From Fimbriimonadaceae bacterium (lineage in GTDB: Bacteria > Armatimonadota > UBA10988), in assembly GCA_020850355.1 (NCBI GenBank), contig JADZEX010000065.1, positions 1 to 34,423 of the forward strand: DNA of 34,423 nucleotides, written 5' to 3'. How positions within the stretch are numbered: the stretch's first letter is position 1; each line of letters starts with the position of its first letter. A program made the translations under genes and the position numbers. This document shows positions 15,894 through 33,111 of the stretch, piece after piece. The notes beneath the pieces are model-generated. The model saw only the letters and a list, made by a program, of their open reading frames with translations. It was not told the DNA's origin and did no database searches.

Positions 15894-16272
15894 CTCACCC
15901 TCCAACGCTGGCATCGGAGCAACGCTTGCCAACCGGCCGCTCACGGAAACTTGGCCGCGGGGCCGGTCGATCCTGCCAACTTCATGCCGCGTGACGCGGG
16001 CTGTTGAGGCGCTGCATCGCTCGCGTGGTACCGCAAGCGCCCGAGGATCGATCGCCGCGTTCCCACGACCGTGGCAGCGGACGCTGCCGCCGCCGCGCCG
16101 CAGCGAGTTCGGAGACGACCAGAGGTCGGCCGCGCGACTACTCTCAGGCGGCGGTCCTCTTCCGGGCCTTGAAGCCCTCGAAGGTGCACCGCAAGAAGCG
16201 CCAGCATCCGTCGCTGGGCGACGTCCCGCCCTGCGTTCGAGACCCTCTGGCTACCGCTCACGCGGCCATCAG
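15894..16272. other. Intergenic gap upstream of glycosyltransferase gene
   Basis: About 380 nt separate the preferred glycosyltransferase start from the next candidate ORF. I see no convincing promoter, RNA gene or conserved ORF. A plus-strand frame near 16116-16165 reads GRPRDYSQAAVLF, faintly like the N-terminus of IS5-type transposases, but it is too short to call. Any promoter for the glycosyltransferase gene would lie here. Confidence 0.4.
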
Positions 16273-16635: not shown

Positions 16636-17436
16636 TCAGCCAACGCTCTCGGCGACGACGCAGCGGCTGAGCTGCGCGCTTTTGATCAACCCCTCGAAGT
16701 AACCAGCCAGTCTCTCTGCCAGCGGGGCGTGGCGCACGAGCACGCCGGCCTCGATGTTGCGCTCCTGGCCCGCGGCCGTGAAGTTGGCCGAGGTGACCAA
16801 CGCCACCCGCCGGTCCACGACAATGCACTTCGCGTGCAGGCTCGCGCGCTCGCTACCCGTGCTGAGCGAGCGTGGGTCAAACCACACTTCCGGCAGCTCC
16901 GGCCAGGGCCAGTGGTGCCGGCGGAACTCGGCCGCGAAGTGTTGCAGCGCCTGCTCTGGATCAGTTGCCGGCCGGTGAGCCATGGCATTCAGGCAGAACA
17001 CCACGCGCAGGCCAGGCACCGCCCGCATCCGTTCGACCAGCGGTGCAAACATCGGCGCGGCGTTGTAGAACGCATAGCCCACAACGAGGACCTCTGTCTG
17101 GGCCGCCTCGAACAACGACCGCATCTGCGCCGGCGTGTCGGCCGTTGGCACTCCCGGCACTTCTGGACCAGACAAGACCAGCTCCACCAGCCGTCCGGGA
17201 TCAGCGCCCGAGACGCGCTCGGCCAGCACCGCGTCCACCAGCACGGCCATCTGCCCGGCCGCATAGCCTTCTCGCTGCAACGTCGACAGCAGTGCTGCGA
17301 GCCGGCCTCCACTACCAGGAAACTGGCGCTCCAACACGGCGGTCGACCAGCCAACGGCCAGCCGACCGCGTCCCAGCGAGTCGGCCAGCTCGCGAAGTTC
17401 AGGGGTCGAGAGACGGTGCAGGGCTTCCCAGTTCAT
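16636..17436 (-). CDS. drmC: DISARM phospholipase D-like protein DrmC
   Basis: The 266-residue protein carries a single phospholipase D catalytic motif: LHAKCIVVDRRVALVTSANF at 200-219, with H201, K203 and D208 in HxKx4D spacing, followed by the typical ERNIEAGVLV. Residues 114-150 (TEVLVVGYAFYN, LRVVFCLN) are the usual core strands of a PLD half-domain. PLD enzymes of this size act as dimers that form one active site, so a nuclease or phosphodiesterase role is expected. Its ATG overlaps the drmB stop by 4 nt (ATGA), which indicates translational coupling. In characterised DISARM systems DrmC was found dispensable for defence. The assignment rests on the PLD motif plus its position after drmA and drmB. 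Confidence 0.88.
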   Translation of the reverse strand: MNWEALHRLSTPELRELADSLGRGRLAVGWSTAVLERQFPGSGGRLAALLSTLQREGYAAGQMAVLVDAVLAERVSGADPGRLVELVLSGPEVPGVPTADTPAQMRSLFEAAQTEVLVVGYAFYNAAPMFAPLVERMRAVPGLRVVFCLNAMAHRPATDPEQALQHFAAEFRRHHWPWPELPEVWFDPRSLSTGSERASLHAKCIVVDRRVALVTSANFTAAGQERNIEAGVLVRHAPLAERLAGYFEGLIKSAQLSRCVVAESVG

Positions 17437-19253
17437 GGCAGGTCGAACAGCGCCGTGGCCGGAGGTTGACCCATCGTGGGGACCACCAACGACCGGTCAA
17501 GGTAGTCGTTGCTCTGCTCGCAGCTCGTCTCAGCGATCAGCAAGCACCCGTGGCAGGCAGAGCCATGCAGAAGCTGGTGCGCCTGGTCGCCGGGCGCGTG
17601 ACCGGCGCACACAGGATCGTTCGAGCACAGGGAGCCCAACTCCAACGCCCGCCGCAGGTGGGCCTCGATCCGCCGGCCGGCGTCCACCAAGCCGCCGAGC
17701 GTACCCTCCGAATCCGATGAGCCGGTCAGAATCAGGATGCCGTACTTGCCTGGCTCCGCGTAGACACGCTCGGTCAGAGACGAGCATGGATAGCCGCAAT
17801 CGAGCGCGATGGCGGTCATCAGGAGGTGCGACAGCGAGTGCATCAGGTAGTACTTGGCACCTGGGAACGCTCGATGCTGGCTCTGATGCTCGCGGCGCCA
17901 CAAGTCGTGTCCCTGTCTGTGTTGCCGCTCGCGGGCTTGGACTTCTGGGCGCGACGCCCACTCCTCAACGGCCGCCGCACGGAACAGCAGAAAGATGCCT
18001 TCCCCACGGTTTTCGGATGCCGGCACCCAGCGCTCGTGGCGCGAGAGCGGCGCGCGCTCCACCTGCGGGTCGAGTTCGCCGCTGGTGTCCGGGCCAGCAG
18101 CCTCGAACCGGGTGAACCCCACCAGCGCAGTCACCTGGCGAAGTCGGTGGACGAGCACGACCCTCTCAACTGGGGCCATCCAGCTCGGCCAGTCTGGGTT
18201 GCTCGGCAGGGCCCGGGCGTCGAACTCGTCCTTCGGCGGCGCCATCGCGGCGGATGTCAGTGGGGCCGCCGCCAAGGCGTCGAACTCGGCCGCTTTGACC
18301 GATCCCGACGCGACCACTGTGTCGTCAGCGCCTGCTCGCACTGCGCGGACGGCCGCCAGCACCTCCTCGTTGTCTAGATCGCCTAGCTCCTGATCAAGCA
18401 GCGGAATGGCGCTCCGCAGCGTCGCCAGCGTGCCGAGGTCATCCACCTGCTCGAAGTAGGTCGACCAGAGCCGTTTGACCACATCGGCGCCACGGTCCTC
18501 GGTCTCCGGAATCGACAGAACCGACATGACCTGCGCAAACCAGGCGTTGCTGGCCGTGCGGATCAACAGGCGGCTCGGCTCGTTGCAGCCGTTTCGCTCG
18601 TCAGGCCCGAGCCACGGCTGTTCACCGCGGCAGTACCCGAGGGCGCCAGCGCGACCAAGCGTCGCATCGGTCATCTGGCGCGCGGCTCCACAGTCGCACA
18701 CAGCCCAGATGTCCCTCAGGTCGCCGCTGGTGCCGCGTTCCTCCAACCAGAGCTGGCGCACGCAGTCCGGGTTGGGCCTACCGTGCACAAAGGCCGGCCA
18801 GTCGAGGTCGGCGAGGTGTCCCTTGCGGCAAGCCCGGACAAACCGTACAGCGACCACCCGGGAGCTCTTCCGGGTGACTGGATGCCGGTACTTCATCTGC
18901 TGGTGCTTGATGCTGTCGAGATGCACCAGGGGCCTTCGCAGCCATTCGTCGCGGGTGTGCTCAGGGCAGTTCGCGACGAACCAGCAGGGGAACCGCCAGG
19001 CCTTCACACCCGGCCGGTCCGTGGCATGTGGATCGTCACAGGCCGGAGGTGGCGGGCGCAACGCCAGGTCGCCGACCCCCAGGAGCGCTCGCAGCTTGGC
19101 CTGGAGGCGTGGCTCCTCAATCCTCGGCCACGTCCCTCGGCCGTAGTACCAGGTCTCGAGCCCCCCGACGAGTACCGCGCCGTCGGGCAGGTCCACCATC
19201 GCCCCTGGACCGAACGGCCCCAGCAGTTGTCCGGCCCTGAGTTGGTCGTGCAT
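17433..19253 (-). CDS. drmB: DISARM protein DrmB (DUF1998)
   Basis: The 606-residue protein has the DUF1998 region at about 465-580: KYYLMHSLSHLLMTAIALDC, then PGKYGILILTGSSDSEGTLG, then a Cys-rich end (C543, C549, C567-x2-C570, C578). Further Cys residues at C90, C96, C142, C186 and C188 suggest additional zinc binding. The N-terminus (LRAGQLLGPFGPGAMVDLPD) is typical of DrmB proteins, which partner the helicase DrmA; the DrmA-DrmB complex loads on DNA with a 5' end in characterised systems. Its ATG lies 11 nt after the drmA stop, with a GGGGG tract about 9 nt upstream, and its stop overlaps drmC. The family assignment is strong because sequence and context agree. Confidence 0.92.
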   Translation of the reverse strand: MHDQLRAGQLLGPFGPGAMVDLPDGAVLVGGLETWYYGRGTWPRIEEPRLQAKLRALLGVGDLALRPPPPACDDPHATDRPGVKAWRFPCWFVANCPEHTRDEWLRRPLVHLDSIKHQQMKYRHPVTRKSSRVVAVRFVRACRKGHLADLDWPAFVHGRPNPDCVRQLWLEERGTSGDLRDIWAVCDCGAARQMTDATLGRAGALGYCRGEQPWLGPDERNGCNEPSRLLIRTASNAWFAQVMSVLSIPETEDRGADVVKRLWSTYFEQVDDLGTLATLRSAIPLLDQELGDLDNEEVLAAVRAVRAGADDTVVASGSVKAAEFDALAAAPLTSAAMAPPKDEFDARALPSNPDWPSWMAPVERVVLVHRLRQVTALVGFTRFEAAGPDTSGELDPQVERAPLSRHERWVPASENRGEGIFLLFRAAAVEEWASRPEVQARERQHRQGHDLWRREHQSQHRAFPGAKYYLMHSLSHLLMTAIALDCGYPCSSLTERVYAEPGKYGILILTGSSDSEGTLGGLVDAGRRIEAHLRRALELGSLCSNDPVCAGHAPGDQAHQLLHGSACHGCLLIAETSCEQSNDYLDRSLVVPTMGQPPATALFDLP

Positions 19254-19264
19254 CGGCCCACCCC

Positions 19265-22200
19265 CTACAGATCCGAGCGCAGCAGCTCAACCGTCGGCTC
19301 GACGTCACGCAGGGATCGGTTGGCCCGGAAGTGCCGCTCCTGGGGTGGCAGCGACGGCAGTTGCGGGTCCAGCACGTCATGCAGGAGCGGCTTGCCGGCC
19401 AGGCGGGTGTTGCCTTCGTAGGCCTGGTAGATCAGCGGTGTCGCGTGCGACGTGGCGTCTTGGGCGATCCGCAACCAGGCATCCGCCAGACCGCTACAAC
19501 GGCTGCGCACCTCGTTGGCCAGCGCGTCGATCTCCTCGGGCGCCAGGTGCGGCGCGTGGTCACGGGCGCGAGCCACCAGCAACTCCAACAACGCATCCAC
19601 CCGCGCTCGAACCTGCGGCATCGCGGCCGCTCCCTCCGGTGCGTTCAGTGCCGCCTCTCCCTGACGGCACAACCCAACCAGCACGGCGGCCAAGGCCCGG
19701 TCCAAGGCGCGGGGTGCGAAGGGGGTCACGCTGGCCGGCTCGACCTCCCGGTAGAACGACTCATGCCAGGTCACAAAGCGCTCGAAGTGAGAGCGGTCGC
19801 GCGGCTTGTGCAGGTTGAGCAGAGCCAGCACCAGGCCAGGACGGTCGCGGTCCCGACCGACCCGGCTGGTCGCCTGAATGTACTCGGCGCAGGCCTTCGG
19901 CTGGCCGAGCACCACCATCAGTCCAAGCCGTAAGATGTCCAGTCCAACCGAGATCATGTTCGTGGCCAAGGCCACATCCACGCGGCCTTCGCGGTGGAAC
20001 TCGGTGGCGAGCCGGGCCTTGGCGTCGGCCACTGCATTGGTGCCGACCCGCGAGGTCAGCTCGAGTGGCTCTGGACTGATCTCCCGGTCGGCGAACAGAT
20101 GCTCCGGCGGATCCAGGCGCCGACGGTGCGAGTACTGCCGGATCTGCAACGTCACCTGGTCCTCGATCAGGTGGCGGCTGCCACCCAGTTCTCGGAGGCT
20201 GCTGAAGTAGCCCAGCAGCGTCATGTAGGGATCGGCCGGGTTGGGCGCTTTCCCGCCGGCCGCGGCCCACGCCACTTGCCCGGCTCCAAGCAGCGTCAGG
20301 GCCGTGCGCAGCAATACCACTTTCATGCTGCGCCCCTGCGCTGCCGCGCCCACATACCAGCGCGCCGGGGCCGCGGTGGCCTGTTTGGTCTCGGCGAAGA
20401 ACGAGTCTCGGCGGTTGGGCACCGGTGGCGGGAAGACCGCCGTGTCCGTACGACCGAACAGGGCCCGAATCTGGCTCTGGGCCCGCCTGACCGTGGCCGT
20501 GCTGGCGATGATCTTCGGCCCGCTCACCCGACCCTCACCAGCGGGCTGGGAGGCCAGTGCTTCGATGGCGGCTTCATACAGACCAGCCACGGTGCCCAGC
20601 GGCCCGGAGATCAGGTGCAGTTCGTCCTGGATGATCAGGTCCGGCGGCGGGAGGTGGTCGCCGCCCAACGGGTGGCCCCGACCAGGGTCGCACGGGCCGT
20701 AGTAGCCGTCGGCGTCATGCCGGTCCACGCGGCCGAAGAGAGCCCCCACCCGGCCCGCCCAAGGCAGCGCGGCGAACTTGTCCAAGGTCGCGACCACGAA
20801 GGCCGGCAGTCGCCGGTAGATCACCTCGTCGACCACCAGAATCGGCAGGGCGCGCCCCCGGCCGATCTCGCAGCGGTAGTTGCTGCAACCAATCGCCAGG
20901 TTCGTCGGCCGACGTTCGTCCGGCACCAGCCGGAGCCCTGTCTTCTCCAGGGTCTTCCCGCACCACGGGCAGCGGGTCAACGGCACCGGCGAGGGATAGC
21001 GGGAACTATCCCGCCGGTACTCGCCCAGTCGCCGGTGCGCCGTGTCGTCCGCCCCCGGTCCACGATAGCCGCTGCCACCCAACCGATTCGGCGTGGCGGC
21101 TGCGCCAACCCACAAGCCGATCTCGAACGGCCAGGCTCCCAGCAGTTCCGGGCGTCGCTCACGCTCCAGTTCCAGGGCACAGATCACCGCAGCAGCACGC
21201 TCCAACTGGTCCAGCGTCAGCAGCCGCAGCGTGTACCGCATCAGCACACTCAAGCCGCCGCCCAGCGGACCCTCGTGGCACAGCCGCCGCCAGACCAGGC
21301 AGAAGGCCGCCAGGCCCAGGTAGGCCTCGGTCTTGCCGCCGCCAGTGGGGAAGAACAGGAGGTCCACCACCCGCCGGTCGGCCGACTGCTCCTGCACCAG
21401 CCCGGGCAGACACATCAACTGGAACGCCAACTGGAACGGCCGCCAGGTGGGCGGCGACACCTGGTCTGGAGTCCCGCCCTGGTCGGCAGCACGGCGCCGG
21501 CGCTGGGCCTGCGCCATGCAGCGGTTCGCGGTTCGGAAGGCCTCCCGGACCTGCTCGTTGTCGCGCAACAGCTCCACACCCCGGCGCATCCGGGAGGCCG
21601 CGTAGCGGGCATCGTCGAGCAGGTCGTGGGCGGTCTGGCTACGGCGTTCGCTCAGCCCGTCGAGGGTCGCCGCTTGGGCCCCGAGCCACGCCTCGTACTG
21701 CTCCACCAGCGGCCGCATCGCCGCCACCACGTCGGCGCCAGTGGCCAACTCGGCGAGCGCCTCCATGGCGAGCTCGACGCCGGGCACCGGTGGTGCTTCG
21801 ACCCGCTCCACGCCCGCGCACGGCAGCCAGCAGGTGGCCACGACCCGACAGCTACCCTCCGCCGTGCGTTCGGCGCGGGTGGCCACGCCGTGACCGACCG
21901 CGTATTCGTGGCAGTCCCGGTACTGCAGGTCCGCCACCCGTTCGTCCCACTCGTCGGCGACCCCGCTGCCGCCCAGCCCGCGGAGGTTGGGCCGGCCGAG
22001 GAAGCCCCTCGCGGCTGCGAGCCGCAACTCCACCTGGAACGCAAAGCTCTGGTCCGGCTCATCTTGCTCACGCGGCTGGCGCTCGTTGACCACAAAGGCC
22101 GAAACGGATCGGGCCCCCGGAGGCAGCCTGTCCTCGCCGATCGCCGCCGCCCCCACCGGCCGGAGCTCCACCACCACCACCAACCCCGCGCTGCCCGGCA

Positions 22201-22714
22201 CGCCGTACCGGTCGGAGTCTCCCGCCGTCAAGCTGATCGACAGCGTCTCCGCATGGGGCAGGCGCCGCCACGGACCGTCCGCTGCCGCGGGCGGCGTCGC
22301 GGGCGCTTCGCCCGCAACCGGTTCGGCAGCAGGCGTCGCCTGCTCGGGGACGTAGTCGCCCCAAGAGACGGTGGCGGTCAGGCTCTCCTCAGCGCCGTCC
22401 ACAAACGCCGTCAGACCGATCGACGCGGGGAACAGACTGCGTCGCGCCGCAGTGCGCTCGGGCGCGCCACCATCATCCGCCGCTGGGGCATCGTCGCCGA
22501 AGTCCAACTCCTCCTGGGCCGCTGGATCAGAACGGTCCTCGGGCGGCGCGCCGATGGGCGCCAGAAAGCCGGTCAGGTACCAGCTCGTCGGCCGTTCCGG
22601 CAGCAGTTCGCAGGCGTAGCCCGGATCGGCGTCAGGCCCCACCAAGTTGAGCTGCAAGGCTCTCACCAGCCCTGCCCGGACCTGCTCGGAACTGGCCGTG
22701 CCTTGCTCCGTCAT
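19265..22714 (-). CDS. drmA: DISARM helicase DrmA
   Basis: The 1149-residue superfamily 2 helicase has a Walker A motif FFPTGGGKTEAYLG at 454-467, a DExH box QDELHLISG at 696-704, STATVRR at 738-744, and the C-terminal helicase motifs ATNMISVGLDI (917-927) and EYIQATSRVGRDRDRPG (944-960). Four Cys at 582, 585, 610 and 615 (CPWC...C...C) probably bind zinc between the motor motifs, a DrmA feature. The first 300 residues are a beta-rich N-terminal domain containing an acidic linker (about 58-80). DrmA translocates on DNA with DrmB and is part of the core restriction complex. The ATG at 22714 has GGGGAG 4-5 nt upstream. It is separated from the upstream HD/YwgA/AlbA_2 block by a short gap with direct repeats, so it may have its own promoter. 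Confidence 0.93.
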   Translation of the reverse strand: MTEQGTASSEQVRAGLVRALQLNLVGPDADPGYACELLPERPTSWYLTGFLAPIGAPPEDRSDPAAQEELDFGDDAPAADDGGAPERTAARRSLFPASIGLTAFVDGAEESLTATVSWGDYVPEQATPAAEPVAGEAPATPPAAADGPWRRLPHAETLSISLTAGDSDRYGVPGSAGLVVVVELRPVGAAAIGEDRLPPGARSVSAFVVNERQPREQDEPDQSFAFQVELRLAAARGFLGRPNLRGLGGSGVADEWDERVADLQYRDCHEYAVGHGVATRAERTAEGSCRVVATCWLPCAGVERVEAPPVPGVELAMEALAELATGADVVAAMRPLVEQYEAWLGAQAATLDGLSERRSQTAHDLLDDARYAASRMRRGVELLRDNEQVREAFRTANRCMAQAQRRRRAADQGGTPDQVSPPTWRPFQLAFQLMCLPGLVQEQSADRRVVDLLFFPTGGGKTEAYLGLAAFCLVWRRLCHEGPLGGGLSVLMRYTLRLLTLDQLERAAAVICALELERERRPELLGAWPFEIGLWVGAAATPNRLGGSGYRGPGADDTAHRRLGEYRRDSSRYPSPVPLTRCPWCGKTLEKTGLRLVPDERRPTNLAIGCSNYRCEIGRGRALPILVVDEVIYRRLPAFVVATLDKFAALPWAGRVGALFGRVDRHDADGYYGPCDPGRGHPLGGDHLPPPDLIIQDELHLISGPLGTVAGLYEAAIEALASQPAGEGRVSGPKIIASTATVRRAQSQIRALFGRTDTAVFPPPVPNRRDSFFAETKQATAAPARWYVGAAAQGRSMKVVLLRTALTLLGAGQVAWAAAGGKAPNPADPYMTLLGYFSSLRELGGSRHLIEDQVTLQIRQYSHRRRLDPPEHLFADREISPEPLELTSRVGTNAVADAKARLATEFHREGRVDVALATNMISVGLDILRLGLMVVLGQPKACAEYIQATSRVGRDRDRPGLVLALLNLHKPRDRSHFERFVTWHESFYREVEPASVTPFAPRALDRALAAVLVGLCRQGEAALNAPEGAAAMPQVRARVDALLELLVARARDHAPHLAPEEIDALANEVRSRCSGLADAWLRIAQDATSHATPLIYQAYEGNTRLAGKPLLHDVLDPQLPSLPPQERHFRANRSLRDVEPTVELLRSDL

Positions 22715-23243: not shown

Positions 23244-23807
23244 TTACGCCAGCAGGCCGGCCTGGCTCATCTGGTCGTAGGTGCGATCCACGTCGGCAGC
23301 GGCGAACCTGCCAGGCTTGACCTCCTGGAGGCGCTGCGCCACGGCCGCCTTGTCCGGTGTCGCGCCCTTGGCCTTCTCCCAGCGGTAGAGGTAGTCCAAC
23401 GTGGCCAACAGCTCCAGCCGGACAGGGCTTAGCGGCACCAGCGCTTGCACGACGCCGCGCACGATGTCTCGGTTGGCATCGAGGTGTGCACGATGCTGGT
23501 CGAGCAGCTCGTTGAGTTTCGCCCCCGGCGCGTAATCCGAGTAGCGGTCAGCACCCGACCGATCGGCGATGACGCCATCGGTCAGTAAGTACTTCACGTC
23601 GCGCGTCAGTTCATCGCAGTACGGCCCGTAGTGGTAGAGCTCGAACCGGTAGCCCATCGGGACCCCGGCGCGGCGTGCGAAGTACACCAGTTTCTGAATG
23701 GCCGTGCGGCCAACCCACCCGCGTTGCTGATCGGCGACGAGGCGTGCCTCTCCGATGACCATCGCCACCAGGGCCTGATCACGATCCCCCGTTAGTAGCA
23801 GCGCCAT
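23244..23807 (-). CDS. YwgA-like protein
   Basis: The 187-residue protein resembles the B. subtilis YwgA family, distantly like Panacea/SocA antitoxins: AIQKLVYFARRAGVPMGYRF at 36-55, then ELYHYGPYCDELTRDVKYLL at 56-75. The rest is helical, with no membrane segment. The ATG at 23807 has GGAGG about 7 nt upstream and lies inside the 3' end of the HD gene, overlapping it by 29 nt, so the two are translationally coupled. YwgA-like genes are often found next to YwfO-like HD phosphohydrolases, as here, which suggests a protein partnership or regulation of the HD enzyme. The biochemical role is unknown. A toxin-antitoxin-like relation with the HD enzyme is possible but not shown. Confidence 0.72.
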   Translation of the reverse strand: MALLLTGDRDQALVAMVIGEARLVADQQRGWVGRTAIQKLVYFARRAGVPMGYRFELYHYGPYCDELTRDVKYLLTDGVIADRSGADRYSDYAPGAKLNELLDQHRAHLDANRDIVRGVVQALVPLSPVRLELLATLDYLYRWEKAKGATPDKAAVAQRLQEVKPGRFAAADVDRTYDQMSQAGLLA

Positions 23808-25161
23808 CGATTCCCTCCGCCGGCGGCTCCGTCTCTCGCGCCATCCTCGCCATACTCCGCCGCGTGACCATGTCCTCCGGGTCCACCGCAGCGAAAACGC
23901 GGCTGCACTGGAACTGGCGGGGCAAGGTCCGCAAGACCTGGCTGCGGTCGGCCAGCAACCACTGCTCGTCGCCGTCCAGGACCCACAACTCCACCCCGGG
24001 CTCGCGATCCGGACCGTCCAGACGCGCCAGTTTGTGGATCTTGCCCTTGGCCTGATCCAGTATGATCTCGTGCTGGGTAAAATGTTCCTGCAAGGCTTTC
24101 GCCACCGTCCCGGCCCGTGCCGCGGCATTGGCGTCGTCGCTCAGCGGTGTCTCGTAGACGACGCGATGGTGGTTGCGGTCCCAGATGCGACGGGCCAGCG
24201 CGCGACGGTCGCCGTCGCCCGCTACGGCATCTTGCCGGATCTGCTCGAGCATGCCGACATCGGTGGCCGCCAGAATGGCCGCATCGCCCCGCGGCGCTGC
24301 GTCTCCCAGTGCCTTGAAGTAAGCCACCAGGTAGTGGTCGTAGATCCGCCGCAGCCGGTGGTAGTACACCTGCGCGTTCATCTGGTAGCGGGCGAGGATG
24401 AGGGCCTCAAAGGTGTGGATGCCGCCCTTGTGGAGCGCCACCTGAAGGCCGCCGCCCTCCACTTGGCGAAGCTCCAGGCACTCGATCATCCGGCGGTAGT
24501 CAAACCGACCGTAGTCGACACCACAATGGAGCGAATCACGCAGCAGGTAATCCGTACGATCGGCGTCCATCTCGCCGGACACGATGTCGTGCAGCAAGGC
24601 TAGTTGCGGCGCGATGGCCTCGCCGCCTTCAACGATGGCGGCCACCCGTCCGGCTGTGCGCTCGCCGTAGTACCTATCGATCTCACTGCCCAGCAGATCG
24701 GCTTCGCGGATCACGCGGAGACTCAGTTGCTCGTGGCCACCTTCGTGCAGCACCTCCTCAGCGGCGTGTGAGAATGGCCCATGCCCCACGTCATGCAGCA
24801 GAGCGGCCAGTCGCAAGTCCTGCCGGGCCTTCGCCAGCGTATCGTACGCGTAGCCCGGCACCTGCTTGAAGACCTCGTCCATCAGCCCGCCGTGCTTCGA
24901 CGCAAGCGAATCAAAGGCCCGGGTGGCCACCTCCATGACGCCCAGTGAGTGCTCGAATCGCGTGTGGCTGGCCCCAGGGTAGACCAGCTCCGTGAGCGCC
25001 AACTGCCTGATGTAGCGCAGCCGCCGGAACAGTGGGTGGTCGATGATCCGGCGCTCGTACTCCGAAAACCGGATGAAGCCGTGCACCGGGCAGCGCACCC
25101 GCTTCAGCGGCTCGTTCGCATCGCCGGCCAGGAACTCCGGGCCACGGTAATCATTCGGCAC
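23779..25161 (-). CDS. SAMHD1/YwfO-like HD-domain phosphohydrolase
   Basis: The 460-residue HD protein has the full set of metal ligands of the SAMHD1/dGTPase branch: RFEHSLGV with H71, LLHDVGHGPFSH with H123 and D124, and SGEMDADRTDYLLRDSLHCG with D201. The N-terminal VHGFIRFSEYERRIIDHPLF RRLRYIRQL is also typical. Such enzymes cleave dNTPs to the nucleoside and triphosphate; SAMHD1 and some bacterial dGTPases restrict viruses by depleting dNTPs. The start is a GTG at 25161 with AGGGAGG about 8 nt upstream, 29 nt after the drmMI stop. It is not a standard DISARM component, so its placement inside the operon suggests an accessory defence or housekeeping role. Substrate specificity cannot be read from the sequence. 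Confidence 0.85.
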   Translation of the reverse strand: MPNDYRGPEFLAGDANEPLKRVRCPVHGFIRFSEYERRIIDHPLFRRLRYIRQLALTELVYPGASHTRFEHSLGVMEVATRAFDSLASKHGGLMDEVFKQVPGYAYDTLAKARQDLRLAALLHDVGHGPFSHAAEEVLHEGGHEQLSLRVIREADLLGSEIDRYYGERTAGRVAAIVEGGEAIAPQLALLHDIVSGEMDADRTDYLLRDSLHCGVDYGRFDYRRMIECLELRQVEGGGLQVALHKGGIHTFEALILARYQMNAQVYYHRLRRIYDHYLVAYFKALGDAAPRGDAAILAATDVGMLEQIRQDAVAGDGDRRALARRIWDRNHHRVVYETPLSDDANAAARAGTVAKALQEHFTQHEIILDQAKGKIHKLARLDGPDREPGVELWVLDGDEQWLLADRSQVLRTLPRQFQCSRVFAAVDPEDMVTRRSMARMARETEPPAEGIDGAATNGGS

Positions 25162-25190: not shown

Positions 25191-28100
25191 TCACTCCGCC
25201 AACAACCCCCCATCCTCCTGCCGCTTCCCGCGCCCACCACGCTTCGTCGTTGAACCCCTGTTACCTCCCGCCGCCAGCCCGGCCAGCCGCTCCTCCTCCG
25301 CCCGCTCCGCGTTCAGCGCCAGCAGCCGCGCCAGCACCTCGTCGCGCACCGCGTCGGGCCAGCGGTAGCGCCAGGGCTTGCGGCGCCGGCGGGGTGAACG
25401 GGGAGCGGCGAACGGCGAACCGTCATCGCCCCCACCGTTCGCCGTTCCCTGTTCTCCGTTCGCCTCGTCCTCCTCGTCCTCATACTCCAGCAGGAACTCA
25501 CACGCCGTCGGCAGGTCGCTCCAGCCGTAGGCGTCCAGCACCGCGCGGTCCATCTCCGCGTGCAGCTCGCGCAGCCGCAGGAGGTCCGGATTCCGCTCGT
25601 CGGGGTCGTGGAAGCGGTTGTAGGTCTTCGTCAGGCCCTCGTTGTGGCAGACCATCAGGTCGGCGCGGAAGTCGTAGTAGGTCTGGCCGATGGACTCCAG
25701 GGCGGGGTTGGATTCCCAGTTGCGGGGGAAGGGGAAGGTCTCGAAGCAGTCAGAGGGGGTGTAGCGGAACCGCTCCTCGAGTGACGATCCAAAGAAGCGA
25801 GCCCAAGCCTCATGCACGCGGCACTGGAGCAAAGCCAACCCACCGCAGGGCGGCACGACGAAGCAGTTGAGTGTGTGGCCGAAGACACCACCAGTCGGGA
25901 GGATGGCAAAGGCGACGTGCGAGGAGACCTGCGAGTTCGCAAGCACCCGAGCCATGCCTTCGATGGCACCATAGAGCTCTTTGGCAGTATGGCCGAACTG
26001 CCAGAACTGCTCGACGATGGCGCCGCTGCTCGATGCCGCTGAGGAACTCGCCCTTGCGGGCAGGACTCTACTCTCCACGATCTGGAACAACTCAGGCCAC
26101 TTCCGGGCCTCTGGCTCTGTCATCTCGCCGAAGTTGATGATGTACCTGTGATGCGAGTGGGTTGGGCTGTCGTTGACTTCCTCGCCGCCAAGGTACGGGA
26201 AGATCCGCTCCGCGTTCCGCGGGTCGCGCGACACCAAGTCGGCCATCACAGCCAGCGGGCTGGCGACTTGTTTCGTGTCCGTGTCATCGAAAGTGAAGCC
26301 CATGCCACGGACCACACTCCCCTGGAAGCTCTTTGCGGTGTTCGCGCGTAGCCTTGCTGGGTCGTCGTGCCCGCCGGCATGGAAGAGGTAAGCGGTGATG
26401 ATCGGCACCGAACGGCCATTGAGCTGGAACGGGCCGGTCACCTTCCTCTTAGCCAGGTGGACAACACTCACCACGACGGCGGCTTGGCCGGGCCAACGAT
26501 AGCGCTTCTGCGCGGCGTAGATGGTGCCGCCATGCCCGCAGGTCCAGCGTAACCCCGATGAGCGGGTGTCGCCCTGTCCGATGGTGTTTGTCGCGATCAG
26601 CCCGAAACAGCCGTTCGGCCGCAGTAGTTCGAACGCGCGCCGAAAGAAGAAAGCGACCAAGTCGCACTTCCCGCCGCTCTCGGGGTTCATCGCTCGCAGG
26701 TAGTCAGTGAACCCAGGACCATTGCTTGTCGTGACCGTGACGTGCCCGGCGAATGGTGGGTTCCCGACGATGCCATCGAACCCCGCCCGCTCGCCCCCAA
26801 ACACCTCCGGGAACTCAATCTCCCAGTGGAACGGGGACACGGGTGAATGGTGAATGGTGAGTGGTGAATGGCCGGAGCCGGCGCGGAGCTCGTCGCGCGC
26901 CGCCGTGGGCAAGTGCCGGACGTCACCCGTCTCCAGCGCCGCCAGCACCGCCTCCAGCAGCGCATCGCGCCGGGCCTGCCGCTCCTTGTCCTTGCTGCCG
27001 CCGAAGAACGCGGCGATCACCAGGTCGCCATACAGCCGCACCACATCGAGCTTGCCGTCGGCCACGGCCAGCCAGCGGCTCTTCTCGGCCGGGCTGAGGT
27101 GGTCGCCGCCGTCGAGCACGCGGCGGCGGCAGAGCACGGCCTGGTCGATGTGCGCTTCGAGGTCCTGCTGCCCGAACACGCGGTCGCCGGTCGGCCGCCA
27201 ATGGAAGCCGAGGATCTGCCGGCGGGTCAGCCCGACCAGCGAGTCGCCGGCCCGCAGCGAGTGGTCGACGAAGGTGAAGGGATGGTCCTTGGCCAGGGTC
27301 GCCAGCCAGAGCGAGAGCTTGGCCAGGTCGACGGCCATCGGGTTCTTGTCCACGCCGTAGAGGCAGCGCTGGGCGATCAGGCGCTTGGCCAGCATCAGCT
27401 CGTCTTCGTCGGGCGGGACCGCCGGCACTTCGCCGTGGTGATGCCAGGCTTCGACCAGCACGTCGGCGAGCTGGCGGCAGGCTTCCACCAGGAACGCCCC
27501 GGATCCCATGGCGGGGTCGCAGACCTTCAGGTCGAGGATCAGCGATTCGGCGAACAGCCAACGGCGAACAGCGAACGGGGTCAGGCGCCAGAGGCGTCCG
27601 GTGGCGTCGTCCGGCGCTTCAAACTGCGTTCCAGGCTCAGGATCTGCCGACCCAGAATGGCCAGTTCCTCCAACAGCGGCTGAGCATGCGGCTCGCTCAC
27701 CAGACCCAGATCGATGCTCAGGAGCAACTGGGTCTCCAACTCCGCCGTGCTGCCGTTCGCAATGCGGATAAACTGGATGAACTCCGCCGGGTAGTGCCTC
27801 GCCCAACCCTCGGCCAGGTTCGAGGGAATGGACACCGCCGCCCGCCGCATCTGCGAGGTCAGCCCGAACCGTTCCTCGCTCGGGAAGCCGCGCGTCAGGT
27901 CGTACACCTCCCGTACCACCCTCCGCCCGCGCTGCCACACGTCCAGGTCGCGATAGGATTCGATGGACATAGTCGCGCTGCTCCTCATTCACCCAAGCCG
28001 GCGAACGGTGACCGGTGAGCGGCGAACCGCCGGTCGCACCAGTCGCTGTTCGCCATTCGCCGTTCGCCCCGTCCCGCCATTCGCCGTTCGCCAGTCGCAG

Positions 28101-29849
28101 GGCATCCTCACCGAGCTGCGCCAGCACCGGCTCCAACGTCTTCCGGACAATCGGCGCGGTGAGCTTGCGCGGGGTGTAGTGCGAGCCGGTGCGGCGGCGC
28201 TCGTCGGTCGGCTGGAGCACCAGGCCGCCAGCCGGCACCGGGGCCGGTGTGGCGTGCCGGGCGATGCGCTTGTCGAGCGCCGCGAGCAGCTCGTCCAGCG
28301 TGCCGGCGTCCTTCAGGCCGCTGTACGTCTTGCCTGTCCAGTCGTGGCCGGTGGCGTCGGCGAGCCACTTGCCGCGGTCCCTGGCTGGGGTGGCGAGCAA
28401 CGCCTCGAGGTTGATCACCACCGGCGCGGCGACCTCGGATTTGTGCTTGCGCTGGCCGACGATGGCGATGGACGTGCCGGCCACCCGTTCGAGCGCGAAG
28501 CCCATGATGGTCTGGTAGACCGAGCCGATCTCCTCGACGTCGAGGGTGCGGTAGGAGAGCCGTTCGCCGTTGAGGATCAGCAGGTTGCGGAGGACGCGCT
28601 CCAGGCAGCCGTCGGCGAGGCGGGGGAGAGGCGACTGGTGGGTGGCGAGTGGCGAATGGTCGGCATCGTCCGCGCCCGTCTCCGTTCGCTGTTCGCCATT
28701 CGCCATGCGCCCCACCAGGAACGGGTACCGCTCGGGGTCGAACAGGTGACCCTCACGCGGCGGCATCGCCAACTCGGGGTGGCGGCAGCCGCCGTGGACC
28801 GCGCCGAACAGGGCCACGAGCTGGGCCCAGCCGCCGTAGCGCTGGTCCATCGTGTCGGGGTAGCGCTCGCGGTCGGCGCGCAGCCGCTCGAACAGGCCGT
28901 GGACCGAGTAGTGGCGCAGGTAGAGCGGCGTGCCCGGCAGCAGGCCGCGGTCTTCGGCGTAGAGCAGGAACACCAGGCGCATCAGCACCGCCAGCAGGCC
29001 GGCGTAGATCGAGTCCGGGTCGTCGCGCAGCGCCTCGGCCAGCAGCTCGCCGTTGGTCGCCGCGTCGGCCGCCTGGAAGCCGCGCAGCAGCTCGTACAGC
29101 GCTTCGAGCACCTGACCCGCCAGGGCCGTGGAGACCTGGCTCTGGTAGTCGCGACTCCTGGCCAGCAACGCCGGCAGCCGCGCCGACCGGGGCCCGGTGA
29201 GCAGGCGCCCGACCGACAGCAGCAGGTCGAGTGCGCCAACCAGCGGCCGGCCGGCGACTTCGGTCAGATGGGTGATCGGCCAGGTCAGGCTGCCCGAACT
29301 CTCGCCGCGCGGCGCGTAGATCAGGCGCAGGTGACGGCCGTTGCAGAGCACGCCGATGGCGACCCCGGTCTCGCGCAACAGCCGCTCGCAGCGCTGGCTG
29401 GCCGACGCCGACCAGGCGGCCTGGTCGCCGGTCGTCGCCGCGTCCAAGCTGGTCGACGGGGCGATCTCCTGGACCAGCACGAGCGGCACCCCTGCCTCTT
29501 CGCTGGTGTCCACAAAGGCCAGGGTCGGCGAGAGGATCTCCTGGAGGTCCGGCAACGGCACGACCAGGCTGTCGGGCACTGGACGCGCTGGTTCGAGGCC
29601 GAGCAGGCACTCCTCTGGCCAGCCCAGGAACTCGCGGACGAAGCGCGTGCAGTCGGCGATGGCCGGGACGGTCTCGGCGCCGGCCTCGACCTCGGCGACG
29701 TGCTCCAGGAAGCGCTGCTGCAACTCGGTGGCGTTGCGGTCCAGGACGACCTGCGCATCGACCAGAGCGGCGGCGGAGACGACCAGCCCGTCGGGCTGGA
29801 GGTACCCGAGCCAGGCCTGGTGGTCGTGCAAGGCGGGATCGTAGGTCAT
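25191..29849 (-). CDS. drmMI: DISARM adenine methyltransferase DrmMI, with inserted elements
   Basis: The 1552-residue frame encodes the large N6-adenine methyltransferase of class 1 DISARM, which modifies host DNA so that it is spared. AdoMet motif I is VCDPAMGSGAFLVEACR at 776-792 and the catalytic motif is GNPPF at 1029-1033. The specificity and C-terminal half include CFETFPFPRNW and YNRFHDP. The N-terminal third (AEDRGLLP, GSHYTPRKLTAP) is standard for the family. The ATG at 29849 lies 4 nt after the drmD stop. Four foreign-looking stretches interrupt it in frame: about 383-407, 586-767 (an entire four-helix-bundle gene element), about 993-1005, and about 1478-1503. Without the large one, LEPVLAQLGEDA would join ESLILDLKVCDPAMGSG, as in normal homologues. 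Whether the enlarged protein is active is unknown. Confidence 0.9.
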   Translation of the reverse strand: MTYDPALHDHQAWLGYLQPDGLVVSAAALVDAQVVLDRNATELQQRFLEHVAEVEAGAETVPAIADCTRFVREFLGWPEECLLGLEPARPVPDSLVVPLPDLQEILSPTLAFVDTSEEAGVPLVLVQEIAPSTSLDAATTGDQAAWSASASQRCERLLRETGVAIGVLCNGRHLRLIYAPRGESSGSLTWPITHLTEVAGRPLVGALDLLLSVGRLLTGPRSARLPALLARSRDYQSQVSTALAGQVLEALYELLRGFQAADAATNGELLAEALRDDPDSIYAGLLAVLMRLVFLLYAEDRGLLPGTPLYLRHYSVHGLFERLRADRERYPDTMDQRYGGWAQLVALFGAVHGGCRHPELAMPPREGHLFDPERYPFLVGRMANGEQRTETGADDADHSPLATHQSPLPRLADGCLERVLRNLLILNGERLSYRTLDVEEIGSVYQTIMGFALERVAGTSIAIVGQRKHKSEVAAPVVINLEALLATPARDRGKWLADATGHDWTGKTYSGLKDAGTLDELLAALDKRIARHATPAPVPAGGLVLQPTDERRRTGSHYTPRKLTAPIVRKTLEPVLAQLGEDALRLANGEWRDGANGEWRTATGATGGSPLTGHRSPAWVNEEQRDYVHRILSRPGRVAARAEGGTGGVRPDARLPERGTVRADLADAAGGGVHSLEPGRGLGEALPGGVHPVYPHCERQHGGVGDPVAPEHRSGSGERAACSAAVGGTGHSGSADPEPGTQFEAPDDATGRLWRLTPFAVRRWLFAESLILDLKVCDPAMGSGAFLVEACRQLADVLVEAWHHHGEVPAVPPDEDELMLAKRLIAQRCLYGVDKNPMAVDLAKLSLWLATLAKDHPFTFVDHSLRAGDSLVGLTRRQILGFHWRPTGDRVFGQQDLEAHIDQAVLCRRRVLDGGDHLSPAEKSRWLAVADGKLDVVRLYGDLVIAAFFGGSKDKERQARRDALLEAVLAALETGDVRHLPTAARDELRAGSGHSPLTIHHSPVSPFHWEIEFPEVFGGERAGFDGIVGNPPFAGHVTVTTSNGPGFTDYLRAMNPESGGKCDLVAFFFRRAFELLRPNGCFGLIATNTIGQGDTRSSGLRWTCGHGGTIYAAQKRYRWPGQAAVVVSVVHLAKRKVTGPFQLNGRSVPIITAYLFHAGGHDDPARLRANTAKSFQGSVVRGMGFTFDDTDTKQVASPLAVMADLVSRDPRNAERIFPYLGGEEVNDSPTHSHHRYIINFGEMTEPEARKWPELFQIVESRVLPARASSSAASSSGAIVEQFWQFGHTAKELYGAIEGMARVLANSQVSSHVAFAILPTGGVFGHTLNCFVVPPCGGLALLQCRVHEAWARFFGSSLEERFRYTPSDCFETFPFPRNWESNPALESIGQTYYDFRADLMVCHNEGLTKTYNRFHDPDERNPDLLRLRELHAEMDRAVLDAYGWSDLPTACEFLLEYEDEEDEANGEQGTANGGGDDGSPFAAPRSPRRRRKPWRYRWPDAVRDEVLARLLALNAERAEEERLAGLAAGGNRGSTTKRGGRGKRQEDGGLLAE
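25395..25465. repeat. gcgaac-type inverted repeat inside drmMI 3' end
   Basis: The left arm gaacggggagcggcgaacgg and its continuation, and the right arm gttcgccgttccctgttctc and its continuation, are imperfect inverted repeats of about 26-28 nt around a 15-nt loop. In the protein it encodes an ANGEQGTANGG...GSPFAAPRSP stretch next to an acidic run. It shares sequence with the flanks of the nested four-helix-bundle element in the same gene. Confidence 0.7.
26840..26875. repeat. gtgaatg-type short direct repeats inside drmMI
   Basis: The plus strand reads ggtgaatgg-tgaatgg-tgagtgg-tgaatgg, encoding HSPLTIHHSP on the minus strand just before HWEIEFPEVF. It resembles one arm of the gcgaatggcgaac hairpins elsewhere in drmMI but has no clear opposite arm. 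Confidence 0.6.
27549..28094 (-). mobile_element. IVS-like element: four-helix-bundle gene flanked by inverted gcgaac repeats
   Basis: An insertion of about 546 nt, a multiple of three, interrupts drmMI between LGEDA and ESLILDLKV. Its 5' flank on the minus strand (about 28094-28005) repeats GGCGAACGGCGAATGGCG twice and folds on itself. Its 3' flank (about 27578-27550) reads CCGTTCGCTGTTCGCCGTTG.., the inverse complement of the 5' flank. Between them lies a complete gene for a 23S-rRNA-IVS-type four-helix-bundle protein. This architecture (terminal inverted repeats around an S23/IVS ORF) is that of intervening sequences known from 23S rRNA genes, here placed in a protein-coding gene. Exact ends and any target duplication are not resolved. 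Confidence 0.7.
27581..27970 (-). CDS. Four-helix-bundle (23S rRNA IVS / S23-type) protein, nested in drmMI
   Basis: The 129-residue protein matches the S23/IVS four-helix-bundle family throughout: YRDLDVWQRG, VVREVYDLTRGFPSEERFGL, TSQMRRAAVSIPSNLAEGWA, FIRIANGSTAELETQLLLS. Members are encoded by intervening sequences in 23S rRNA genes and are related to Avd proteins of diversity-generating retroelements; they form pentameric barrels and are thought to bind nucleic acid. I chose the ATG at 27970 because the family starts there and GAGGAG lies about 10 nt upstream; an in-frame ATG at 27988 would add six residues. It is on the same strand as drmMI but in a different frame, lies wholly inside it, and has its own stop. 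The host frame is open across it. Confidence 0.85.
   Translation of the reverse strand: MSIESYRDLDVWQRGRRVVREVYDLTRGFPSEERFGLTSQMRRAAVSIPSNLAEGWARHYPAEFIQFIRIANGSTAELETQLLLSIDLGLVSEPHAQPLLEELAILGRQILSLERSLKRRTTPPDASGA
28005..28096. repeat. 5' flank of the nested element: gcgaac repeats with internal inverted arms
   Basis: In minus-strand reading, two direct copies of GGCGAACGGCGAATGGCG are followed after a short spacer by GGTTCGCCGCTCACCGGTCA.. in inverse orientation. The region can form a local hairpin or pair with the 3' flank near 27550-27578. It encodes LANGEWRDGANGEWRTATG.. in the drmMI frame. Confidence 0.7.
28625..28712. repeat. gcgaatggcgaac-type inverted repeat inside drmMI 5' third
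   Basis: The left arm ggcgactggtgggtggcgag plus tggcgaatgg and the right arm ccgttcgctgttcgccattc plus gccatgcgcc are imperfect inverted repeats of about 30 nt around a spacer of about 21-23 nt. It encodes ANGEQRTETGADDADHSPLA in an otherwise conserved region. It is the same family as the hairpins at 25395 and 28005. Confidence 0.7.
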
Positions 29850-29853
29850 GGCG

Positions 29854-32800
29854 TTACCCCGTGACCGGCCACAGGTAGGCCAGCCCGACCGGCTCCAAGC
29901 GCGACGAGGTCACCTCGTAGAACTCCCGGATGCGCTCCGGCTCGCGGGCTCGCTGGTCGTCAAACCGACCCAGCCAACGCTCCCAGGCGCGGCGGTTGGC
30001 TTCGAGCTGCCGCTCCTCCTCGGCGGTCAGCGCTCCGGGCAGGAGGCCTTGCGGTGAGCCGCCGCGCAGTTTGGCCTGCTCATCGAGGACGCGCCGCTTC
30101 TGCTGGTCCAGCATGTCAGCCATCGCCTCAGCCTCGATCCGTCCGCGATCCGCGAGGCGCCGTGTGGCGTCCACCTGCGCCGCGGCGCCGCGGTCGGACA
30201 GGTGCGGCAGGAGTTCGCCGATGTCCTGGGCCACCGACGCCTCGAAGCGCGCGGCCACCGTCGGCGCCACCCGGCCCGGCCCGGGCTTCAGGGCCGCCTC
30301 CAGCAGGTCCAGGGTGCGGCCTTCGGCCTCCCGCGCATAGGGCGCCAGGGTACCGTGGCGCACCTCCGGGGCCGTCCAGCGGGCGGTCACGGTCAGCACC
30401 TCCTCGTGCAGCCGCACCGCACCGCGACCGTACAGGGCCAGGCGGCCGATCAGCACCACGCGCGGGATGCTGTCCTCGCTCTGAGCCAGGCAGGCGCGCG
30501 ACAGGTCGTGGTAAACGAAGCCCTGGGCCGTGAACCGTGAGAGCAGCCGCTGCACGACGCGGTGGGACAAGTGGAGCTGCACGACGTCGTCGTCGAGTCC
30601 CGGCGGCGGTTGGAAGACCACCGGCCGAAGGGGCTTCTGCTGGCGCCACTGGTAGGTGCGATCGCCGTCCTCGGGCAACTCCCGGAGCGTGTCGAGCGTG
30701 CCCGCCCAGCCCGGATCGGAGCCGTGACGGGTGTCCAGATTCGGGAACACGAAGCGCTGCGGCTCGCCGCTGGGCGTGTCTGCTGGCGCGAGGGGCTTGA
30801 CTCGCAGCATCTCCAGCGAACAGGACAACGCGTCACGCAACGCGCCCTCGTCCAAGCCGATCCGGCGCCGGGAGCTGTCCAGGTAGGTGCGCAGCGTGTC
30901 GATCTCCCGCTGCAGATCGGCTCGGCGCAAGCGAGTGGCCTCGAGCTCCTCGTCGACCACCGCCTGCCGCTCCGGGTCGGGACCGATGGCTTGGATGTCG
31001 GCCGTGATCCGCGCCACCTCGGCATGGCGGATCCCGCCCTGCTGGAGCATGTCGGCCAGGCGCTTCTCCAAGACCTGTGAGAGGCTGCCGAGTTCGGCGC
31101 GGATGGTCTCCGTCTTCTGCACCAGCGTCCTCAGAACGCGGTCCTCGGGCCGTTGGGTGTAGACGAAGTAGTGGCAGAACACCTTGTCGCGAGGCTGGAG
31201 TTTGCGGTCGATGCGGCCATTCCGCTGTTCGAGGCGGGCCGGGTTCCAGGGCACATCGAAGTGGAAGAGGTGGCTGCAGTGCGCCTGCAGGTTCAGACCT
31301 TCGCGCGCGGCGTCGGTGGCCACGAGAATGCGCAGCGGGTGCTCGGCGGGGGCCAGGTTGAAGGCGCGTTGGATGGCCCGGCGGCGGTCCATGGACGTGG
31401 CGCCGCTGTAGAAATCGAGGCGCTGCTCGGCCAGGTCGGTGCCTCTGACCGCCTCGCGCAACCTGCCCACCAGCCACCGCCGGGTGTCTTCGTACTCGGT
31501 GAAGATCAGCAGCCGCCGGTCCGACCATCGGGCGTCGCGCTGACCGCTGGGCTCGTCGGGCAGACGGGCACCGGCACACAGATGCTCGCGGACCCAGGCG
31601 ATCAGGTGCCGCACGCGCGCGTCAGGCAGGCCGCGAGTTGATTCCGCGATCCGGACCATCTCGTCCAGCAACTGCCGCTCGCGGGGAACGTCGGCGGAGG
31701 TCGGCGTGCCCGCTGTGGCCAGGGTGGCACGCTCGAAGGCGACCTCCTCCAAGCGACCGCGGTCAGCATCGTCGAGGGCCGCGCAGTCGTCGTCCGGATC
31801 GCCGGCACCCACCAAGGCGCCCTGGTCGCAGCGCCCCGCAGTCGTCGCCTCGCCAGCCCAGAGTCGCTCCATCGTCCGACGATGCACCGCCAGCGTCCGC
31901 GCAAAGGCCTCGACCGACGAGAGCAGCCGCTGTTGCAGGCCCGAGAGGAGCAGCGCAGCTTGGGCCTGCTGGCGTTTGGACGCTGCGGCCACCCGGCGCT
32001 GGCGCACGTCGCGGTACGCGTTGAGCAACTCCGATAGCCGCAACTCGGGAGCGTCCGGCGGCAGACCGGCGAGGTCGACCTGCCGCACGGCGCGCTCGGG
32101 GAAGCCGCCCTGCAAAGCCCGAATGTCGTCTTTCAGCCGGCGCACCATAACCTGGTCGCGGTTCTTGGGCAGTACCTGCACCCCCCGCACGAACCTGTCC
32201 GGGTCAAGCAGTTCCAGCAGTGCGCTGAAGCTATTGGAGTGGCCATTGTGCGGGGTGGCTGAGAGGAACAGGCGGTGCTCGAAATGCGGCGCCAGATCGC
32301 GGATGGCCCGGGTGATTCGACTGTCGATGGCGTAGCGGGAGCTGCTGGCCGGGGCAGCGTGGTGGGCCTCGTCCAGGATCAGCAGGCTGCCCGTGCGCAG
32401 CTCGCCGAGCCAGGCGCGGAGCGGGCCGGCGTAGCTCTCATCGATCAGCAGCTTGTGCGAGACGATGAAGCGGGGGTAAGTCAGCCAGGGATTGGCCCCG
32501 AAACCATGCTCACGCCGGATCCGGTCGACGTACTCGCGGTCCAGGACCTCGAAGGTCAGCCCAAAGCGCGACTCCATCTCCTCCTGCCACTGCGGGATCA
32601 TCGACGGCGGGCAGGCGACCACGATCTCGCGCACGCGGCGCCGGAGCAGCAGCTCGGAGGCGATCAGGCCAGCCTCGATGGTCTTGCCGAGGCCCACATC
32701 GTCGGCGATGAACAAGCTGACCCGCGGCAGGACGAGGGCCTTGCGGAGCGGCTCAAGCTGGTAGGCGTCGAGCTTGATACCTGCGCGGAATGGCGACTGG

Positions 32801-33111
32801 AACAGACGCGGCTCGGTGGCGGTGACGCAGTTCCAGCGCAGCGTGTGAAGGTAGGCACTGAACCATGACTTCGCGTCGAAGCCCCGCGCGCCGATGCTCT
32901 GCCAGGCCTCCTCATCGAGGATCTGAGCCTCTGGTTCCAGTTCCCAGATGACCTCAAGCGGTTGGCCTTGGGCATCGTCATCGAGGCAGGACAGTCGGAC
33001 CAGCGCGCCGTGGCCCGTGGTGCTGTCCACGGCTTCGGTGAGGTAGGTGCGCATCCGCAGGCGCACGACTTGCCCGGGCGCTGGGATCGGAGCTGGGGTG
33101 GGAGTGCTCAC
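29854..33111 (-). CDS. drmD: DISARM SNF2-like helicase DrmD
   Basis: The 1085-residue SNF2/Rad54-type helicase has Walker A IADDVGLGKTIEAGL at 135-149, the DEAH box ILDEAHHAAP at 245-254, motif III LSATPHNGHSNSF at 283-295, motif V VATDAAREGLNLQ at 597-609, and motif VI PARLEQRNGRIDR at 624-636. A coiled-coil-prone segment (about 690-780) and a C-terminal DrmD-type region follow. DrmD marks class 1 DISARM, where it is encoded next to drmMI, as here. It is thought to remodel or translocate on DNA during restriction. The start is a GTG at 33111 with GAGAGGG about 7 nt upstream; this GTG overlaps the stop of a small upstream frame (GTGA). It is the first clear gene of the operon, so the promoter should lie upstream of 33111. 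Confidence 0.92.
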   Translation of the reverse strand: MSTPTPAPIPAPGQVVRLRMRTYLTEAVDSTTGHGALVRLSCLDDDAQGQPLEVIWELEPEAQILDEEAWQSIGARGFDAKSWFSAYLHTLRWNCVTATEPRLFQSPFRAGIKLDAYQLEPLRKALVLPRVSLFIADDVGLGKTIEAGLIASELLLRRRVREIVVACPPSMIPQWQEEMESRFGLTFEVLDREYVDRIRREHGFGANPWLTYPRFIVSHKLLIDESYAGPLRAWLGELRTGSLLILDEAHHAAPASSSRYAIDSRITRAIRDLAPHFEHRLFLSATPHNGHSNSFSALLELLDPDRFVRGVQVLPKNRDQVMVRRLKDDIRALQGGFPERAVRQVDLAGLPPDAPELRLSELLNAYRDVRQRRVAAASKRQQAQAALLLSGLQQRLLSSVEAFARTLAVHRRTMERLWAGEATTAGRCDQGALVGAGDPDDDCAALDDADRGRLEEVAFERATLATAGTPTSADVPRERQLLDEMVRIAESTRGLPDARVRHLIAWVREHLCAGARLPDEPSGQRDARWSDRRLLIFTEYEDTRRWLVGRLREAVRGTDLAEQRLDFYSGATSMDRRRAIQRAFNLAPAEHPLRILVATDAAREGLNLQAHCSHLFHFDVPWNPARLEQRNGRIDRKLQPRDKVFCHYFVYTQRPEDRVLRTLVQKTETIRAELGSLSQVLEKRLADMLQQGGIRHAEVARITADIQAIGPDPERQAVVDEELEATRLRRADLQREIDTLRTYLDSSRRRIGLDEGALRDALSCSLEMLRVKPLAPADTPSGEPQRFVFPNLDTRHGSDPGWAGTLDTLRELPEDGDRTYQWRQQKPLRPVVFQPPPGLDDDVVQLHLSHRVVQRLLSRFTAQGFVYHDLSRACLAQSEDSIPRVVLIGRLALYGRGAVRLHEEVLTVTARWTAPEVRHGTLAPYAREAEGRTLDLLEAALKPGPGRVAPTVAARFEASVAQDIGELLPHLSDRGAAAQVDATRRLADRGRIEAEAMADMLDQQKRRVLDEQAKLRGGSPQGLLPGALTAEEERQLEANRRAWERWLGRFDDQRAREPERIREFYEVTSSRLEPVGLAYLWPVTG

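Follow-up and report, generated by a model that had tools for sequence, protein, structure and literature searches.

An IVS-type element with inverted heptamer arms and an out-of-frame S23 gene lies inside the DISARM methyltransferase gene drmMI

The window analyzed here, a whole stretch of 34,423 nucleotides from a Fimbriimonadaceae contig, carries a DISARM defense locus on its minus strand, composed of the following genes.

16636-17436, minus strand: PLD-domain gene (Pfam PLDc_2), probably drmC, named from position and domain
17433-19253, minus strand: drmB (PADLOC DrmB)
19265-22714, minus strand: drmA (PADLOC DrmA)
25191-29849, minus strand: drmMI, DISARM class 1 methyltransferase, MmeI/Eco57I-like (Pfam and PADLOC)
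29854-33111, minus strand: drmD (PADLOC DrmD)

The four genes that together define a class 1 system (drmD, drmMI, drmA, and drmB) were all identified by PADLOC on the contig, and the naming of DISARM in the first-pass annotation was therefore right. Between drmA and drmMI, a gene at 23779-25161 (minus strand) codes for an HD-domain protein that weakly matches dGTPase and may be an accessory of the locus. The DISARM genes are also adjoined by a gene for a 2782-aa RHS-repeat protein (1537-9885, minus strand), and beside them lies a gene (10212-15944, minus strand) whose 1910-aa product contains several domains of the glycosyltransferase, methyltransferase, and TPR types.

The drmMI open reading frame spans 1552 codons and contains a large insert throughout which it remains open. 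PADLOC matches DrmMI in two stretches (residues 8-577 and 770-1543) separated by this insert, and both motif I (DPAMGSGAF) and motif IV (NPPF) of the methyltransferase are intact. The features of the insert are as follows.

27549-28094, minus strand: IVS-type insertion of 546 nt covering host residues 586-767, delimited by the empty site in homologues
27581-27970, minus strand: nested S23/PF05635 four-helix-bundle gene, frame offset +1 relative to the host
27981-27986, minus strand: Shine-Dalgarno site GAGGAG of the nested gene
28041-28068, minus strand: 5' (G-rich) heptamer arm, coding strand
28072-28099, minus strand: outer heptamer units adjoining the 5' arm
28000-28027, minus strand: C-rich heptamer array just 5' of the nested start codon
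27548-27576, minus strand: 3' (C-rich) heptamer arm, coding strand

The nested gene encodes a 129-amino-acid protein (P0001) that matches PF05635 with an E value of 1.3e-36 (125.4 bits versus a cut-off of 33.8) and TIGR02436 with an E value of 5.5e-34. AlphaFold (AF2) models this protein as a four-helix bundle with a pLDDT of 95.9, for which the best fold match is 2gsc, a five-bundle assembly according to its title in the reference list of PMC3936711, Avd being more distant. The first-pass annotation had proposed a complete S23/IVS gene in another frame of drmMI with its own Shine-Dalgarno site, and both points were confirmed: the family match is clear at an offset of +1, and GAGGAG gives a calculated duplex energy of -7.5 kcal/mol, a value reached by 6% of the ATG/GTG sites that lie out of frame in drmMI. 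Since the heptamer arrays consist of degenerate short tandem repeats and long spurious open reading frames arise in DNA of high G+C content, it could be argued that no real gene lies between these repeats. This reading is already refuted by the PF05635 family match, and the confident AF2 model, the fold match to 2gsc, and the purifying-selection codon pattern between related nested copies (see below) also speak against it.

Like an rRNA IVS, in which pairable terminal inverted repeats surround the S23 ORF, the element is framed by inverted arms (27549-27574 versus 28043-28068); these are 88% complementary over 26 nt, and their pairing closes the element in the predicted RNA fold. The only recognized gene between the arms is S23. 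A second small inverted pair (28000-28027 and 28041-28068) is located just 5' of the nested start codon, and 28000-28027 is able to form a small hairpin with 28041-28068 that competes against the 3' arm. The inverted gcgaac repeats reported at first pass can thus pair in the predicted fold but are not simple terminal repeats, as these ends are actually tandem heptanucleotide arrays in inverted orientation.

An alignment for an empty site was performed with 80 host homologues from many phyla, in which residues were counted between fixed columns. The homologues spanning the site have 33 to 80 residues there, mostly 33 or 37, rather than unrelated sequence of equal length, compared with 216 residues in the DrmMI of the window (P0002), and the element is absent from most homologous methyltransferases. 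The extra segment of 546 nt, or 182 codons, is located between LGED and ILDLKVCDPAMGSG, before AdoMet motif I, with exact ends that are uncertain by a few residues because the homologues are about 55% identical. The earlier claim of a frame-preserving element of about 182 codons placed before motif I is thereby upheld. In an AlphaFold model of DrmMI residues 470 to 1120, the methyltransferase parts flanking the insert are mostly well scored and the insert has a pLDDT of about 30, consistent with the long disordered host insert suggested previously; low pLDDT says little about disorder in a segment that has no homologues, and the 182 residues probably form a long unstructured loop.

Three further heptamer insertions, devoid of the S23 gene, are found elsewhere in drmMI.

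28630-28711, minus strand: site A, gene-less inverted heptamer pair
26838-26873, minus strand: site C, single heptamer array, before PFHWEIEF
25393-25464, minus strand: site D, gene-less inverted heptamer pair

Three tandem copies of RGYGARY (21 nt) match the 6.67-Mb genome four times, always in drmMI, compared with zero matches for a reversed control pattern, and 13 of the 15 genome matches at no more than one mismatch are also in drmMI. The idea that the heptamer is dispersed across the home genome was thus rejected, the unit being practically confined to this gene. The second S23 match of the genome (L002, G000:C62:11950-15147) is not the same element: it is weak and divergent, and its four-helix gene has 9-nt GACCGATCY repeats at several places in its own coding frame. 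Gene-less arrays with units other than that of the window occur in DrmMI homologues of Planctomycetota/Verrucomicrobia (L151, L153, and L156), among which L151 has the heptamer CTAGCAA before PFHWEIEF, in the same loop as site C of the window, and L153 has ATCACGS at site A. Furthermore, a genome of the same family as that of the window (G002) has GGTGAAC/GGTGAGC heptamers on many contigs, with several inverted pairs 10 to 100 nt apart (C230, C359, and C507) that resemble a MITE family.

As suggested in the first-pass annotation, S23/IVS genes located inside other genes were searched for. A methyltransferase profile was run on all six-frame ORFs of the first S23 locus set, an open frame not being required. 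Seven S23 genes, including that of the window and thus six more, were found nested in DrmMI/type IIG-like methyltransferase ORFs: one each in G000 (the window), G101, G037, G007, and G153 (Phormidium) and two in G155 (Candidatus Chloroploca). The window case is thus not a one-off. At 58 further S23 loci from the cyanobacterial and gammaproteobacterial phyla, no methyltransferase nesting was observed. The seven genes represent at least four S23 lineages and are inserted before motif I in four hosts, after motif I in two, and near the C-terminus in one. In the related hosts L177 and L178, the S23 genes occupy one and the same position but are unrelated, and sister S23 genes are found in the divergent hosts L001 and L177. 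Because the copies in L204 and L205 are sisters, and the L001/L177 pair may likewise not be independent, the seven cases correspond to about five or six events. Gene-less heptamer arrays also occur at other places in the ORF of most nested hosts, usually with the same unit as the element. A candidate nesting in another gene (L025/L180) lies where the contig ends inside the S23 gene, and the antisense frame open over the S23 gene of L182 is probably a spurious high-G+C frame.

The recurrence of nesting in one class of defense methyltransferases, the conservation of the S23 frame, and the presence of other S23 genes inside CRISPR-Cas operons (PMC3936711) could mean that the methyltransferase has the nested S23 protein as a functional partner or regulator, one that might bind the arms and so set expression, in which case nesting would be adaptive rather than passenger-like. 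We consider this unlikely given that most homologous methyltransferases have no S23 gene, that the S23 lineages and insertion positions differ, and that the majority of S23 genes are found outside methyltransferases.

All seven nested S23 genes are in sense orientation at a frame offset of +1 in hosts that form one open frame, which for the hosts cut by a contig end or by the fetched stretch (L178 and L204 at the start, L206 near the end) is known for the visible part. The frame used by the host is free of stop codons over the S23 domain in 7/7 nested genes versus 5/103 other S23 genes. Upon synonymous shuffling of P0001, the host frame stayed open in 4% of trials, and for the other six nested genes in 2 to 69% (2 to 15% for three and 38 to 69% for three). 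The S23 frame itself is under purifying selection in related nested copies, as judged from the codon pattern, L204 and L205 showing 15, 11, and 37 differences at codon positions 1, 2, and 3, respectively. Moreover, with the exception of L205, the Shine-Dalgarno energies of nested starts mostly rank in the best few per cent when compared with out-of-frame starts in the same gene.

These data bear on two further explanations. If drmMI had been inactivated by the insertion, the open frame would be a coincidence of high G+C content, as the shuffling results of the three most permissive genes would allow; the low values for the window gene and three others, the in-frame state of all seven hosts, and the intact catalytic motifs make this very unlikely. 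Alternatively, the element could act as in rRNA, RNase III cutting the paired arms and the IVS RNA being lost without ligation, so that the drmMI mRNA would be fragmented and DrmMI lowered or split. Pairing of the arms in the predicted fold and the excision of the Coxiella IVS, which has heptameric repeats at its 5' end, by RNase III (PMC4990558) are in line with this possibility. However, constant cutting of the transcripts would leave no selection for an open host frame, and this frame lacks stop codons in every nested case; we regard this explanation as fairly unlikely.

The arms were next considered for S23 genes at large, using as criterion an inverted repeat score of at least 14 between the upstream and downstream flanks. 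In the home phylum, arms were found at 70 of 90 S23 loci versus 1 of 84 farther flanks and 0.5% for flanks of different loci. In the phyla of a cyanobacterium and of a gammaproteobacterium, arms were detected at 25/29 and 17/29 loci, respectively, compared with 0/27 far flanks in each. Overall, 129 of 170 S23 loci have complementary inverted arms, typically built of tandem 7- or 8-mers (far flanks, 1/138 combined), and 41 lack them, so an S23 gene is usually set between heptamer-type arms. The upstream arm has more G than C at 118 loci. The tandem period in home-phylum arms is 7, followed by 8, other periods being rare except for the double period 14. Repeat units of the two arms of one locus match at no more than one mismatch in 17/25 cases versus 15/552 for mispaired arms; the unit differs by locus, and close relatives of an S23 protein tend to have it in common. 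No rRNA was detected at the 36 S23 loci scanned with Rfam, and the L019 group, suspected of being rRNA from its conservation, instead lies beside groEL-like genes. Another group of related S23 genes (L012, L021, L024, L026, L076, and L077) has orthologous neighbors in common; at L012 and L021, the S23 gene is surrounded by genes that Rfam identifies as bacterial large SRP RNA and tRNA, and longer imperfect repeats take the place of plain heptamers.

The architecture is borne out by examples on complete plasmids. On a Nostoc edaphicum plasmid, an S23 gene with TAGGGAG arms is located between nrdB and nrdA, and the same site without the S23 element in Calothrix NIES-4105 constitutes an independent, intergenic empty site. 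An empty site in relatives, as looked for in a transposable element, is thus present both for the drmMI homologues and for the nrdB-nrdA site. Calothrix brevissima offers a further plasmid example of the heptamer-arm architecture. On plasmids of Pseudanabaena galeata (L226) and Anabaena sp. 90 (L228), type I-D CRISPR operons contain a heptamer-flanked S23 gene between their cas6 and cas4 genes, and bare heptamers are found at the cas6-cas4 junction of Pseudanabaena ABRG5-3. The Anabaena/Dolichospermum cas6-cas4 junction was rejected as a clean empty site because it holds a different palindromic element in Dolichospermum, which makes it a hot spot. No clear target-site duplication and no mobilizing enzyme were found for the element, no identical copy was present at an unrelated site among the S23 loci examined, and tblastn against 50,697 phage records gave no match. 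The closest pairs of copies (L199/L201 and the Calothrix plasmids L223/L224) have adjoining genes in common and hence do not prove movement.

With a probability of about 0.7, we interpret 27549-28094 as a heptamer-armed IVS-type element that forms a frame-preserving disordered loop in DrmMI and from which the S23 protein is separately translated. The element would have inserted into drmMI where an inter-domain loop precedes AdoMet motif I. Reading through the element, the host frame would give DrmMI its 182-residue loop, and the S23 protein would be translated in the +1 frame from its own Shine-Dalgarno site on the same mRNA. We infer production of both proteins and movement of the element as one unit, its arms presumably pairing in the RNA as modeled; the element is probably mobile. 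The mirror-image repeats around most S23 genes in three phyla suggest a little-recognized mobile class that can enter genes without loss of frame. In its widest form, an idea to which we give even odds, S23/IVS genes would be a widespread mobile class with locus-specific inverted 7- to 8-mer arms, with rRNA IVSs as one small branch of it and heptamer pairs lacking the gene as its non-autonomous form, able to persist in coding genes as frame-preserving inserts with a functional out-of-frame gene, i.e., as mobile overlapping genes. If true, this would define the S23/IVS family in general terms, as genes enclosed by inverted heptamer arrays, and tie it to the separately described heptanucleotide repeats of Xanthomonas, Geobacter, and Nostoc. 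It would also offer repeated natural cases of overlapping genes born by insertion, show that large defense methyltransferases tolerate passengers next to their catalytic core, and make the recognition by S23 of its own repeat unit testable. In the open-access literature, which leaves out most subscription papers, we found no paper tying S23 genes generally to heptamer arms and no description of S23 nesting in methyltransferases.

The S23/IVS family has been known for decades from rRNA cases. Avd of diversity-generating retroelements, whose function involves a reverse transcriptase together with template and variable repeats, is a homologous four-helix bundle (fold match and weak NCBIfam match). 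Unlike a retroelement Avd, the nested protein scored 22 bits with NF033474 against a cut-off of 80, its arms enclose an S23 gene only, and no reverse transcriptase was present among the window proteins scanned. As in MITE/REP-type elements, gene-less inverted pairs occur alongside gene-bearing copies, but the arrays are tandem and of variable length, with locus-specific units and no known transposase or fixed ends.

The heptanucleotide repeats of Xanthomonas and Nostoc (PMC4692102), which form inverted pairs in Xanthomonas, and the heptamer elements of Geobacter, also found within genes (PMC2700814), resemble the arms in being tandem heptamers, often in convergent inverted pairs. Unlike the window element, they are discussed as quadruplexes or in terms of regulation, and a search of both texts for IVS and four-helix terms revealed no link to S23 genes. 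S23 (23S_rRNA_IVP) genes of CRISPR-Cas loci (PMC3936711) share the defense-locus setting, and the Pseudanabaena and Anabaena plasmid examples are also heptamer-armed; those genes lie between operon genes, whereas that of the window lies inside a gene in another frame. A close parallel in architecture is the 23S rRNA IVS, such as that of Coxiella burnetii (PMC4990558), with an S23/PF05635 ORF, pairable inverted ends, heptameric repeats beside the ORF, and a similar size (about 430 to 550 nt). An rRNA IVS proper was rejected, as the window has no rRNA and the host is drmMI. In contrast to the 23S rRNA IVS, the window element has inverted heptamer arrays as its ends and resides in a protein-coding gene, where it preserves the reading frame and its S23 gene overlaps the frame of the host.
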